From NCBI GenBank assembly GCA_030740435.1, contig JASLXG010000145.1, positions 1-38,174 on the forward strand: a DNA stretch of 38,174 nucleotides, given 5' to 3'. The position numbers and the translations under genes were made by a program. How positions within the stretch are numbered: position 1 is the stretch's first letter; every line of letters begins with the position of its first letter. Of this stretch, positions 33,587-38,174 are shown piece by piece. Below the pieces are notes generated by a model. It made no database searches. It was given only the letters and a program-made list of their open reading frames with translations, and was not told the origin of the DNA. The DNA comes from Alphaproteobacteria bacterium (GTDB lineage: Bacteria; Pseudomonadota; Alphaproteobacteria; UBA2966).

Positions 33587-34216
33587 ATGACCGAAGACGA
33601 CGACGAAACAGCCGCAAGCAGCTTTTTCGAGCCCATGTACGCGGCTTCCAGCACCGAGGGCGAGGGCCTGCCTTGGGCCCACATGCAGGCCAACGGGCAG
33701 CTCGCGGAATGGCTCCGGGACCAGCCGCCAGGGAGTGGCCGCCCGGCCCTGGTGACGGGCTGCGGCCTGGGCGACGACGCCGAGGAGATCGCCCGCCGGG
33801 GCTGGGAGGTCATGGCCTTCGACGTGGCCGAAAGCGCCATCCGGCTCTGCCTCGAGCGTTTCCCCCAAAGCTCCGTCGACTATCGCATCGCCGATCTCTT
33901 CCGGCCGCCCGACGACTGGCGCGGCGCTTTCGCTCTGGTCTTCGACAACCGCACGGTGCAATCGCTGCCGTACGAACTGCAGCCCCGCGCCATGGCCGCC
34001 GTGGCCGGCCTGGTGGCGCCCGGCGGCACGCTGGTGGTGGTCACCGAGATCGTCGGACCCGAACACCTGAGCCAGGGCCCGCCCTACCGCATGCTGGCCG
34101 AATCGCTGGTGGCCTACGAAGCGGCCGGCCTGGCGCGCCAAAGCTGGGACGAGGTTCCCCACCGCGAAGATCCCCCCTCGCGCCACGCCCGGGTGGTTTA
34201 TGGCCGCTCGAGGTAA
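33587..34216 (+). CDS. SAM-dependent methyltransferase, thiopurine methyltransferase-like
   Basis: A 209-aa class I methyltransferase. Motif I reads LVTGCGLGDDAEEIARRGWEV, followed by AFDVAESAI (acidic SAM ribose ligand) and VDYRIADLF; a post-motif DNRTVQSLP and an APGGTLVVVTE strand complete the fold. The N-terminal FFEPMYAAS and PWAHMQANGQL segments resemble the TPMT/thiol-ester methyltransferase group. It precedes selA by 70 bp on the same strand, so a link to selenium or sulfur methylation is tempting but unproven. Confidence 0.8.
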   Translation: MTEDDDETAASSFFEPMYAASSTEGEGLPWAHMQANGQLAEWLRDQPPGSGRPALVTGCGLGDDAEEIARRGWEVMAFDVAESAIRLCLERFPQSSVDYRIADLFRPPDDWRGAFALVFDNRTVQSLPYELQPRAMAAVAGLVAPGGTLVVVTEIVGPEHLSQGPPYRMLAESLVAYEAAGLARQSWDEVPHREDPPSRHARVVYGRSR

Positions 34217-34286
34217 CGCGATGGTGTTGGGGGGGCGCGCTCTTTGGCGCTAAGCTAAGGCCCCCCGCAATCATGCCACCGCTTCC

Positions 34287-35702
34287 ATGCCGCCAGCCAA
34301 AGCCTCGCCCCAGGCCGCCATTCCCTCCGTTGACCGCGTGCTCGGCCTGGCCGGGCTGGCCGACGCCATCGCCGCCCATGGCCGGCCGCTGGTCACCGAT
34401 GCCGTGCGCGCGGCCTTGGCCGATCTGCGCCGGCGTCTGGCCGACAAAAAAACCGGCGAGCCGGCGGCCGAGGCAGCCATCATCGCCGACGTACTGGCGC
34501 GCCTCGAAGCCCTCAAGCGGCCGCCGCTGACCAGGGTCCTCAACCTCTCGGGCACCATCATCCACACCAACCTGGGCCGGGCCCTGCTGCCGGCCGCCGC
34601 GGCCCAGGCCATGGTGGCGGCGGCGACCTCGGCGGTGGATCTGGAATACGACCTCGGCAGCGGCCGGCGCGGCGATCGTGACAGCCGGCTCGAGGGCTGG
34701 CTCTGCCGCCTCACCGGCGCCCCGGCGGCGACCGTGGTCAACAACAATGCCGCCGCCGTGTTGCTGGTGCTCGACAGCCTGGCGAGGCGCAAGCAGGTGC
34801 CGGTATCGCGCGGCGAGCTGATCGAGATCGGCGGCTCCTTCCGTTTGCCCGACATCATGGCGCGTTCGCATTGCAAGCTGGTCGAAGTGGGCACCACCAA
34901 CCGCACCCATCTCGGCGACTTCGAGGCCGCGCTGGGGCCGCGCACCGGCTTGGTGATGAAGGTCCACACCAGCAACTACGTGGTCGAAGGTTTCACGGCC
35001 GCCGTGGCGGAAGCTGACCTCGCGAAACTCTGCCGGGCCCACGGCATCCCCTTCGTCGTCGACCTGGGCAGCGGCACGCTGGTCGACCTAGCGCGCTACG
35101 GCTTGCCGCACGAGCCGACACCGGCCGAGGCCCTGGCGGCAGGGGCCGACCTGGTGACGTTCTCCGGCGACAAGCTGCTGGGCGGGCCCCAGGCCGGCAT
35201 CATCGTCGGCCGAGCCGATCTTGTCGCCAAGCTGAAGAAGAACCCGCTCAAGCGCGCCTTGCGCATCGACAAGATCAGCACGGCGGCGCTGGGGGCCGTG
35301 CTGCCGCTTTACGCCGATCCCGAGCGCCTGCCCGAGCAGCTGCCGGCGCTCGGCTTCATGATCCGGGCCCAGGCCGACATCGAGGCCCAGGCGCGCCGCC
35401 TGGCGCCTCGGCTGGAGACGGCCCTGGAGAAGATCGGGGTCAGCGTCGCCCCCTGTTTGAGCCAGATCGGCTCCGGCGCGCTGCCCGACAAGGCACTGCC
35501 CAGTTGCGCCCTGGTGCTCAAGCCCGACGCCGGCTCGGGCCAGGCCCTGGCCCGCTTGGCGGCCCGCTTTCGCGGTCTGGCCCTGCCCGTCATCGGCCGC
35601 ATCCAGGACGGCGCGCTGTGGTTCGATCTGCGCTGCCTCGACGACGAAGAAGGGTTTTCGACCGGCCTCGCGGAACTCGCCACCGGGGCGGCGAAAAAAT
35701 GA
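34287..35702 (+). CDS. selA: L-seryl-tRNA(Sec) selenium transferase
   Basis: PLP enzyme converting seryl-tRNA(Sec) to selenocysteyl-tRNA(Sec). The 471-aa protein has the family segments LNLSGTIIHTNLGRALLP (about 85-102), VVNNNAAAVLL, EVGTTNRTHLGDFE and the PLP Lys296 in TFSGDKLLGGPQAGI. A helical N-domain precedes the fold. The stop overlaps the selB start (ATGA), so selA and selB are coupled. The start at 34287 gives the expected N-terminus. Confidence 0.95.
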   Translation: MPPAKASPQAAIPSVDRVLGLAGLADAIAAHGRPLVTDAVRAALADLRRRLADKKTGEPAAEAAIIADVLARLEALKRPPLTRVLNLSGTIIHTNLGRALLPAAAAQAMVAAATSAVDLEYDLGSGRRGDRDSRLEGWLCRLTGAPAATVVNNNAAAVLLVLDSLARRKQVPVSRGELIEIGGSFRLPDIMARSHCKLVEVGTTNRTHLGDFEAALGPRTGLVMKVHTSNYVVEGFTAAVAEADLAKLCRAHGIPFVVDLGSGTLVDLARYGLPHEPTPAEALAAGADLVTFSGDKLLGGPQAGIIVGRADLVAKLKKNPLKRALRIDKISTAALGAVLPLYADPERLPEQLPALGFMIRAQADIEAQARRLAPRLETALEKIGVSVAPCLSQIGSGALPDKALPSCALVLKPDAGSGQALARLAARFRGLALPVIGRIQDGALWFDLRCLDDEEGFSTGLAELATGAAKK

Positions 35703-37639
35703 TCGTCGCCACCGCCGGCCACGTCGACCACGGCAAGACGCTGCTGCTGAAGGCGCTCACCGGCGTCGATACCGACCGCCTGCCCGAGGAAAAAAAGCGC
35801 GGCCTCTCCATCGATCTCGGTTTCGCCTTCCGCGAGCTGCCGGGTGGCGACATCCTCGGCTTCATCGACGTGCCGGGGCACGAACGCTTCGTGCGCAACA
35901 TGCTGGTGGGCGTGGCGGCCATCGATTTCGTGCTTTTCGTGGTGGCGGCCGACGAAGGTCCCATGCCCCAGACCGCCGAGCACCTGGCGATACTGGATAT
36001 TCTGGGCATCGAACGCGGCGCCGTGGCGCTGACCAAGATCGACCGGGCCGAGCCCGAGCGCATCGCCGAGGTGACCACCCAGGTGCAGGAGATCCTGGCC
36101 CCCACCAGCCTGTCCGGGATTCCGATTTTCCCGCTCTCCTCTCTCTCCGGAGAGGGCGTCGAAGCTCTCAACGGACACCTCACCGAGACGGCGCTGGAGA
36201 TCCCGCCGCGCCCGGCAGGCGGCCGTTTTCGCCTTGCCGTGGACCGCTGCTTCACCATCTCGGGGGCCGGGTTGGTGGCCACGGGAACGGTCTTTTCCGG
36301 CACCATCGGGGTCGGCGAACGGCTGCTGCTGTCGCCGCCCGGCATCGAAGTCAGGCTGCGCAGCCTGCACGCCCAGAACCGCGACAGCCAGAGCGGACGG
36401 GCCGGCCAGCGCTGCGCCCTCAACATCGCCGGCAACGTCAAGCGCAGCGACGTGCAGCGCGGCCAATGGCTGCTCGAGGCCGCCGTCCACGCCCCGGTGC
36501 GGCGTCTCGACGCCCGCTTGAGGGTGTTGCCGGGAGAGGCCAAAGCGCTGCGCCACTGGACGCCGGTGCACGTCCACATCGGCGCCGCCGATGTCACCGG
36601 GCGCCTGGCACTGTTGCGCGACCGCAGCCTCAAGCCGGGCCAGACGGCGCTGGTGCAACTCGTGCTCGACCACCAGATCGGGGCACTGAGGGGCGATCAC
36701 TTCGTGCTCCGCGACCAGTCCGCCAAACGCACGCTGGGCGGTGGTATCGTGCTCGATCCCTTTGCGCCTGCCCGCGGCCGGGCGCGGCCCCAGCGCCTGG
36801 CCTATCTCGAAGCCATGGAGCGCGAAAGCCCGGGCGAGGCGCTCAAGGCGGCACTGGCCGCCCGGCCGCGCGACGGTGTCGACCTGGACCGCTTCGCCCG
36901 GGCCTGGAACCTCACCGCGGCCGAGGCCGAGGCGCTGGGCGACCGGGCCGGCGTCGTCGCCATCGGCGGCGGTGGGGGCGGCAACGACGCCATCGGCCTC
37001 GACAGCGGCCACTGGGAGAGCCTGCGGGCCGCCGTCATCGGCGCCCTGCGCCACTGGCACCGGCAAAAGCCCGACAGCGCCGGGCCCAGCGAGGTGGCGC
37101 TGCGCCTGGGCATCGACGAGCCCGTCGGGGCCCGCGTCTTTGCCGCCCTGATCCGCGATCTGGCGCGGCAAAAAGTTCTGCTGCGCGACGGCGCGGCGCT
37201 GCGCCTGCCCGACCACCGGCCGGAGATGTCGGCCCCCGATGCGGCGCTTTGGCAGCGCCTCGAGCCTTTTTTGCAGGAGGGCGGCGTGCGGCCGCCACGG
37301 CTGCGCGAGGTGGCGGCCGAGCTGGGCATCGATCTCAAGGCGCTGACCGGCTTTTATGGCCGGGCGGCGCGCCAGGGCCTGTTGCTGCCGGTGGCCGACA
37401 ACCGCTATTTCCCGCCCGCCGCCGTGGCCGAGTTGGCCCGCATCGCCGAGGATCTGGCCGGCCGCAGCTCCGACCAGGCCTTCACGGCGCGGCAATACCG
37501 CGACGCCGCCGGCATCGGCCGCAATTTGGCCATCGAGGTGCTGGAATACTTCGACAAGGTCAAGTTCACCGCCCGCAGCGGCGACAACCGCCGCCTCCGC
37601 CGCCCCGCCGCCGAGCTCTTCCCGGCGGCCGGGGAATGA
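35699..37639 (+). CDS. selB: Selenocysteine-specific elongation factor SelB
   Basis: GTPase that delivers selenocysteyl-tRNA to UGA codons marked by a SECIS element. The 646-aa protein has G1 GHVDHGKT (7-14), the switch region DRLPEEKKRGLSIDLGFAF, G3 DVPGHERFVRNM, and the TKID G4 motif. EF-Tu-like domains 2 and 3 and a C-terminal set of winged helices for SECIS binding follow (about 380-646). The ATG overlaps the selA stop. A longer in-frame reading from 35504 lies inside selA. No selC (tRNA-Sec) was found in the window on either strand. Confidence 0.95.
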   Translation: MIVATAGHVDHGKTLLLKALTGVDTDRLPEEKKRGLSIDLGFAFRELPGGDILGFIDVPGHERFVRNMLVGVAAIDFVLFVVAADEGPMPQTAEHLAILDILGIERGAVALTKIDRAEPERIAEVTTQVQEILAPTSLSGIPIFPLSSLSGEGVEALNGHLTETALEIPPRPAGGRFRLAVDRCFTISGAGLVATGTVFSGTIGVGERLLLSPPGIEVRLRSLHAQNRDSQSGRAGQRCALNIAGNVKRSDVQRGQWLLEAAVHAPVRRLDARLRVLPGEAKALRHWTPVHVHIGAADVTGRLALLRDRSLKPGQTALVQLVLDHQIGALRGDHFVLRDQSAKRTLGGGIVLDPFAPARGRARPQRLAYLEAMERESPGEALKAALAARPRDGVDLDRFARAWNLTAAEAEALGDRAGVVAIGGGGGGNDAIGLDSGHWESLRAAVIGALRHWHRQKPDSAGPSEVALRLGIDEPVGARVFAALIRDLARQKVLLRDGAALRLPDHRPEMSAPDAALWQRLEPFLQEGGVRPPRLREVAAELGIDLKALTGFYGRAARQGLLLPVADNRYFPPAAVAELARIAEDLAGRSSDQAFTARQYRDAAGIGRNLAIEVLEYFDKVKFTARSGDNRRLRRPAAELFPAAGE

Positions 37640-37658: not shown

Positions 37659-37687
37659 TTGCCGCCGCGCTCACGCCCCTCTAAGCT
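37659..37687 (+). promoter_or_regulatory. Putative promoter of the tiny transcription unit after selB
   Basis: TTGCCG (37659-37664) and TAAGCT (37682-37687) are spaced by 17 nt. Transcription would start near 37694, about 14 nt before the anti-SD-complementary sequence. The -10 match is modest, so this is a tentative call supported by the tidy layout up to the terminator at 37846. Confidence 0.35.
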
Positions 37688-37707
37688 GAGAGCGTGTTCA
37701 ACGAACG

Positions 37708-37721
37708 AAAGGAGGTGATCC
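37708..37721 (+). promoter_or_regulatory. Exceptionally long Shine-Dalgarno sequence
   Basis: AAAGGAGGTGATCC is a perfect 14-nt complement of the 3' end of 16S rRNA. The GGAGG core ends 7 nt before the ATG at 37723, an ideal spacing. No other gene in the window has an SD longer than about 7 nt. Confidence 0.85.
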
Positions 37722-37722
37722 C

Positions 37723-37803
37723 ATGTCGAGTGAATTGCGAGCCCCAGAGCTCAGCCTTGGTGTCCGTCGCCGGCAGCGGAGCAACCTCTTCTCCGGAAGC
37801 TGA
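37723..37803 (+). CDS. Candidate 26-aa microprotein with perfect Shine-Dalgarno
   Basis: The ORF starts MSSELRAPELSL, continues GVRRRQRSN and ends LFSGS followed by TGA. It is basic in the middle and hydrophilic, with no signal or membrane segment. It is framed by a promoter-like sequence, the 14-nt SD and a perfect-stem terminator, giving a predicted mRNA of about 180 nt. I do not recognise a function. An alternative is that the RNA itself, carrying a near-complete anti-anti-SD, is the functional product. Confidence 0.6.
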   Translation: MSSELRAPELSLGVRRRQRSNLFSGS

Positions 37804-37845
37804 CACCGGATCACAAGATCAGGGCTGAACTTGGGCCCATTCACG

Positions 37846-37876
37846 GAAAGGCGGCCATCCGGCCGCCTTTCTTTTT
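37846..37876 (+). terminator. Strong intrinsic terminator
   Basis: GAAAGGCGGCC (37846-37856) pairs perfectly with GGCCGCCTTTC (37861-37871) around a 4-nt ATCC loop and is followed by TTTTTAT. This is a textbook rho-independent terminator ending the 26-aa unit. Confidence 0.92.
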
Positions 37877-37884
37877 ATCTCTGT

Positions 37885-38040: not shown

Positions 38041-38174
38041 TGCCCCCCGAAAACTGGTCCAGCCCGGATGTTAGGATTGGGTTGGCTTGAAGGAGGGCAA
38101 AATGGCGAAGAAGAATCACACGGTTGAGCAGATTATCGGCAAGCTCCGCGAGGCGGAGGTCCGGCTAAGCCAGG
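38041..38174 (+). mobile_element. Left end of an IS3-family insertion sequence (cut by the window end)
   Basis: The element appears to begin at TGCCCCCCGAAAACTGGTCC, a TG-starting terminal inverted repeat of IS3 type. The transposase orfA starts 61 bp inside. The right end, orfB and the target duplication are outside the window, so the exact boundary is inferred from where the interrupted minus-strand frame stops making sense. Confidence 0.75.
38102..38174 (+). CDS. IS3-family transposase OrfA (N-terminal part only)
   Basis: The first 24 codons read MAKKNHTVEQIIGKLREAEV followed by RLSQ, the typical start of the helix-turn-helix OrfA protein of IS3-family elements. AAGGAGGG lies 6 nt upstream of the ATG. 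The gene runs off the end of the window; orfB would follow, usually by programmed -1 frameshift. Confidence 0.9.
   Translation, partial: MAKKNHTVEQIIGKLREAEVRLSQ

Follow-up and report, generated by a model that had tools for sequence, protein, structure and literature searches.

With leader peptides and attenuators, the choice between RNA helices depends on whether a short ORF is translated, and the output is a downstream gene on the same mRNA. A second group for comparison is found among small RNAs of alphaproteobacteria that carry an anti-SD-like stretch. SisA, one of the alpha-R8 sRNAs (SisA–D and MmgR), has an anti-SD seed directed against the Shine–Dalgarno (SD) sequences of mRNAs (PMC12559287), and action through an anti-SD seed has been proposed for BbsR14 (PMC7717549). 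The available portions of these two reports describe RNAs that act on mRNAs in trans, and include no account of a full 16S complement, a start codon or an ORF. Cryo-EM has shown SD helices in Staphylococcus aureus that extend towards the start codon (PMC13009471). The Caulobacter sRNA CC2171 (Rfam RF01867) is filed as a non-coding sRNA without a function; Mesorhizobium huakuii MH_s33 is listed under the same accession, and RNA-seq products were obtained for 34 of the 35 sRNAs predicted in that organism, all but MH_s6 (PMC5596092). Two earlier Caulobacter ncRNAs are reported to be translated (PMC4117421).

The locus considered here occupies positions 37659–37876 of the window, by which we mean the whole 38,174-nt stretch of alphaproteobacterial DNA that was analysed. 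It shares with the S. aureus sites an SD helix extended towards the start codon, but those sites belong to ordinary mRNAs, have a shorter extension and lack an internal copy of the 16S tail. Unlike the transcript of an attenuator, the RNA ends at a terminator with no gene downstream, and its peptide is not conserved.

Anatomy of the locus

The locus was recognized as a stand-alone transcription unit with the following features.

37659–37687, plus strand: promoter-like TTGCCG (37659–37664) and TAAGCT (37682–37687), separated by 17 nt, below the consensus threshold
37707–37721, plus strand: extreme SD sequence GAAAGGAGGTGATCC, a 15-nt perfect complement of the 16S rRNA 3′ tail
37723–37803, plus strand: 26-codon ORF with a 26-aa product, MSSELRAPELSLGVRRRQRSNLFSGS, and the stop codon TGA at 37801–37803; start and stop constrained
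37730–37735, plus strand: 5′ strand of helix H1 (GUGAAU), just past the start codon, pairing with 37839–37844; covariation
37759–37764, plus strand: 5′ strand of helix H3 (GGUGUC), pairing with 37802–37807; covariation
37777–37791, plus strand: internal copy of the 16S tail, CGGAGCAACCTCTTC, an anti-SD stretch that can pair with the RNA's own SD or form a small hairpin
37802–37807, plus strand: 3′ strand of H3 (GACACC), overlapping the stop codon; covariation
37839–37844, plus strand: 3′ strand of H1 (AUUCAC), at the foot of the terminator; swap control and covariation
37845–37876, plus strand: intrinsic terminator with a 12-bp stem and 4-nt loop (37845–37872) and a TTTT tail; the stem covaries in relatives

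All parts of the complete unit that the original prediction had placed after selB (SD, 26-codon ORF and terminator) were therefore found, with two corrections of length: the perfect complement of the anti-SD comprises 15 rather than 14 nt, and the stem of the perfect terminator 12 rather than 11 bp. The promoter-like sequence that had also been proposed proved weak by consensus, and the promoter scan of the window called none at its threshold. Its positions were nevertheless kept in relatives, in which TTG and TA..T/CATACT occur at equal distance from the SD; a promoter score of at least 6 was reached at 25 of 193 loci, compared with 3 of 193 in the reversed control.

A single base separates GAAAGGAGGTGATCC from the ATG at 37723. 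16S rRNA ends could be located in few assemblies, and the tail sequence was taken from four alphaproteobacterial genomes with a readable end. In these the 3′ end is GGCTGGATCACCTCCTTTCT, which makes the complement 15 nt long. The tail in the same four genomes reads GGATCACCTCCTTTCT, so that the complement begins at the base of helix 45 and ends at TTTC. No 16S rRNA gene was found in the assembly of the window genome itself, and the match between the SD and the 16S tail of that genome is therefore taken from relatives.

Relation to CC2171

At the gathering threshold a tRNA was the sole Rfam report in the window. A permissive scan of the region returned RF01867 with 39.7 bits (E = 3.6e-7), and this match was full-length (model positions 1–159 of 159). 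The curated cut-off of the family is 75 bits, of which the window copy falls short; the RNA is thus a divergent relative and not a threshold member. Of 55 genomes, 43 contained a match to the model, which in nearly every one of them fell on the extreme-SD locus. Seven loci scored above the cut-off and all seven coincided with matches to the extreme-SD pattern; those that were read had a GTG start, a short ORF and H1. The extreme SD, the start, the short ORF and the terminator are shared by CC2171 matches in other alphaproteobacteria, whereas the family's filing as non-coding contrasts with the ORF found here, with its signs of translation, and with the 16S-tail copy. Expression as a small RNA is documented for the relative in M. 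huakuii, and the window RNA itself is known from its sequence. The original prediction had spoken of an undescribed small regulator; as RF01867 matches it end to end, the novelty seems to lie in the translated, self-masking design, which appears undescribed, and not in the RNA family itself.

Distribution and conservation

BLAST searches with the region gave matches in 11 of the 96 genomes searched, including the window genome, and 194 distinct relatives were collected. The pattern GAAAGGAGGTGATCCNATGTC was found in at least 119 stretches in one-per-species genomes, and all matches listed by title were from Alphaproteobacteria. With one mismatch allowed, the core pattern was present in 84 of 378 good alphaproteobacterial genomes, nearly always once per genome. 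The 109 genomes from other classes of the phylum sample contained no match, and none was obtained with the reversed control pattern. These counts are lower bounds, since members with a shorter SD exist (G036). No plasmid relatives were found.

The exact 14-mer has a single occurrence in the 4.5-Mb window genome. Exact 15-nt SDs were present at 177 of 202 loci, a figure that is partly due to the construction of the search: the related sequences were in part collected via the SD, its constancy is partly built in and p-values are optimistic. Chance origin was rejected on the basis of the conservation, the single genomic copy and the absence of control matches. A decayed minus-strand 16S gene was also rejected as the source, as the tail alone matches and the flanks are not 16S. 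The element is confirmed as real, selected and stand-alone, and is centred on an extreme SD sequence.

Signs of translation in the short ORF

Start codons in the full collection were ATG (172), GTG (28) and TTG (2). Many of the collected loci had been found with ATG in the pattern, and the fair test is therefore the one-mismatch pattern count, in which, among the matches whose mismatch fell on the first base of the start codon, this base was G in 26 cases, T in four and C in none. The first in-frame stop was located at 14–36 codons in all 194 loci, compared with 31 % in each of the other frames, and codon 19 of the sphingomonad ORFs was TAA, TGA or TAG at 53 of 60 loci. Eight loci with ORFs of 56–59 codons were excluded because they resemble coding genes for a small secreted protein. 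The restriction of the start base to G or T and the constrained position of the stop support the view that the ORF is translated.

Values of pN/pS were 1.23 in the sphingomonad set, 1.16 in the rhizobial set and 0.77 in the window type, and gave no evidence of purifying selection on the peptide, none of the three sets falling below the column-shuffle null. The peptide differs between orders, and no protein family match was obtained for the 26-aa sequence. A recurring DNA motif, GGAGCARYCTC, occurs in each of the three reading frames and is therefore a feature of the RNA; a conserved EQP peptide motif was rejected as coding on the same grounds. If the RNA were a small mRNA whose microprotein, some 26 aa long, had a function, the start and short ORF that are always kept would be accounted for, and close relatives do have a similar peptide with the pN/pS of 0.77 given above, but a ratio of at least 1 in the two larger sets, the motif in three frames and the lack of a family match make this explanation improbable. 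Of the selection for microprotein translation that had originally been suggested, the constraint on start and stop was thus upheld, and the codon substitution pattern, which had been named as a check, gave no support to selection on the peptide.

RNA structure

The 183-nt window RNA was predicted to fold with −82.4 kcal/mol (z = −4.4). In the proposed structure, 12 pairs showed changes on both sides among 12 relatives, a number that was reached by none of 500 shuffles and by none of the slid versions of the structure. Strands of H1 paired with a mean of −10.3 kcal/mol with their own partners, compared with −6.4 kcal/mol when swapped between lineages. Covarying helices therefore link the start region with the foot of the terminator. 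The original prediction that the region is not random sequence is borne out by its conservation in the class, both by BLAST and by pattern, and by the fold; constraint on RNA structure is seen in the 12 covarying pairs.

That the parts came together by chance in the window genome, or are a dead remnant there, would be in keeping with a second partial copy without the SD elsewhere in that genome (L014), which suggests that copies can decay. Given the class-wide conservation with covarying structure, and a window copy that retains every part, we regard this as highly improbable; for the family as a whole such a reading is already refuted.

Internal copy of the 16S rRNA tail

In 66 distinct non-sphingomonad representatives, the terminal 40 nt of the ORF contained a site able to pair with the SD at a mean of −12.2 kcal/mol; the corresponding values were −8.5 kcal/mol for the 40 nt that follow the stop and −8.8 kcal/mol for shuffled sequences. 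These sites read CGGATCGCCTTTG, CGGATCTCTCCG, CGGAGCAACCTC and similar, and resemble the 16S tail GGATCACCTCC; many also match its GGATC part. Across the whole RNA body the excess of SD complementarity was weak (mean z −0.9), and it stood out only over the final 40 nt of the ORF. The sphingomonad loci have no such copy in the tail of the ORF.

The position of the stop follows that of the copy. With the copy located without using the stop position, the in-frame stop fell between −2 and 25 nt past the end of the copy in 78 % of cases. Permuting the stops lowered this figure to 51 %, and the stops of the other two frames gave 12 and 7 %. Copies occur in three frames, and outside the sphingomonads the stop lies just past the copy whatever its frame. 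Pairing of the window copy with the SD was kept in 97 % of cells among 12 relatives, with no both-side changes; as the SD is constant, this pairing is not open to proof by covariation. Single-sequence folding of the window RNA preferred a small hairpin at the copy over masking of the SD, and opening the SD costs 4.8 kcal/mol.

The main rival to a role of the copy within its own RNA is a trans-acting anti-SD sRNA, in which the C/U-rich tail copy would act as a seed and block SDs on other mRNAs, in the manner of SisA from the alpha-R8 group. Anti-SD seeds are common in alphaproteobacterial sRNAs, with SisA (PMC12559287) and, as proposed, BbsR14 (PMC7717549) as examples, and the copy is often within a hairpin. 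The GGATC part of many copies, however, pairs with the RNA's own extended SD and not with an ordinary SD, and the tracking of the copy by the stop would be left unexplained. We consider this reading rather unlikely, and likewise the form of it in which the extreme SD and short ORF merely stabilize the RNA through ribosome loading, or mask the seed.

The SD paired with the 16S tail at −26.8 kcal/mol. The alternative in the original prediction, an RNA that engages the anti-SD of 16S rRNA, was judged a fair option, the element being built around its extreme SD. One version is a decoy, an abundant RNA that would occupy the 16S tail and lower the pool of free 30S subunits, with the ORF as a release device; the strength of this pairing and a complement that spans the whole tail and is nearly invariant are in its favour. 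Cells contain many thousand ribosomes. A single gene copy per genome is set against that number, the start and stop constraints indicate ordinary translation, and self-masking would weaken the effect, so that we give the decoy little chance.

Gene neighbourhood

Genes for a TPMT-like methyltransferase, selA and selB (Pfam) lie consecutively at 33587–37639, directly upstream of the RNA, with selB ending at 37639. The neighbours vary by order: selB in the window, a 651-aa protein in many Rhizobiales, which by eye looks like an acetyl-CoA synthetase, and a small lipoprotein-like gene in the sphingomonads. A link of the RNA to sel genes was absent in the other orders, and a leader or 3′-UTR element of selB was rejected because of this variation and because the RNA has its own terminator. 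Nor does the RNA fit a leader-peptide attenuator: the transcript contains no regulated gene downstream of the ORF and ahead of the terminator, and the neighbours differ between orders.

Several further observations were made on the window and on individual members. The contig breaks off (38087–38174) within an ORF whose beginning, by eye, resembles orfA of an IS3-type transposase (MAKKNHTVEQIIGKLREAEV). L014 (G000:C58:3299–3377) is a second copy of the 3′ half in the same genome, 89 % identical to window positions 37799–37877; it includes the terminator, lacks the SD and start, adjoins an AMP-dependent synthetase-like gene and is possibly a decayed copy or an sRNA that shares the 3′ half. The closest relative, L004 (G001:C112), departs from the family inside the terminator, near a contig end, through either an insertion or an assembly break. 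G026 carries two members of different types, L182/L209 and L011/L208 (MSHC-type and MSHG-type); the two types can therefore coexist and may be paralogues.

The same extreme SD precedes secreted-protein genes at eight loci (L047, L078, L088, L133, L135, L136, L139 and L228), whose 56–59-aa products have a signal peptide followed by [DE]CS..H. The Azospirillum members of this group begin with ATGTCTCATGGAGC, a feature in common with the sphingomonad RNAs. The 5′ end of the RNA may here have been joined to a coding gene.

Proposed mechanism

The features read from these sequences, namely the complement, the start constraint, the placement of the stop, the unselected peptide, the covariation of H1 and H3 and the tail copy, suggest a self-masking RNA whose folding would be switched by ribosome docking and by translation of a disposable ORF. 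This is our preferred reading, put forward tentatively and at a little short of even chances. The locus would produce a stand-alone RNA, about 180 nt long and divergently related to CC2171, and the 5′ end of this RNA could base-pair along the entire single-stranded 3′ tail of 16S rRNA; 30S subunits should dock strongly on account of this full-tail complement. The tail copy inside the ORF would mask the RNA's own docking site. Where the 30S subunit wins, the ORF would be translated, with the peptide as a by-product, and H1 and the tail copy would be unfolded in the course of initiation and elongation. On reaching the stop, just beyond the copy, the ribosome would sit over the copy during termination and thereby keep the SD accessible to its successor. 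We infer two states, one closed and one ribosome-loaded and self-sustaining, and switching between them. The folding preference for the hairpin, the modest cost of opening the SD and the sphingomonad ORF tail that lacks the copy all count against the switch.

No gene is present between the ORF stop and the terminator in the window, and the output must therefore lie in what becomes of the RNA or in what it does, most likely its stability or the unmasking of a segment with regulatory effects on other mRNAs. That there is a widespread class of such RNAs, with a full complement and a 16S-tail copy, in which translation of a disposable ORF that stops just past the copy drives a ribosome-operated conformational switch with neither a meaningful protein nor a downstream gene, is a broader proposal to which we attach lower confidence.

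If the proposed mechanism is correct, a conserved alphaproteobacterial RNA would respond to ribosome docking itself. CC2171 and similar families have been filed as non-coding and left without a function. The effects of full-length SD sequences have mostly been studied with artificial constructs, and this RNA would offer a natural single-gene system for the effect of a full-length SD sequence in the cell.
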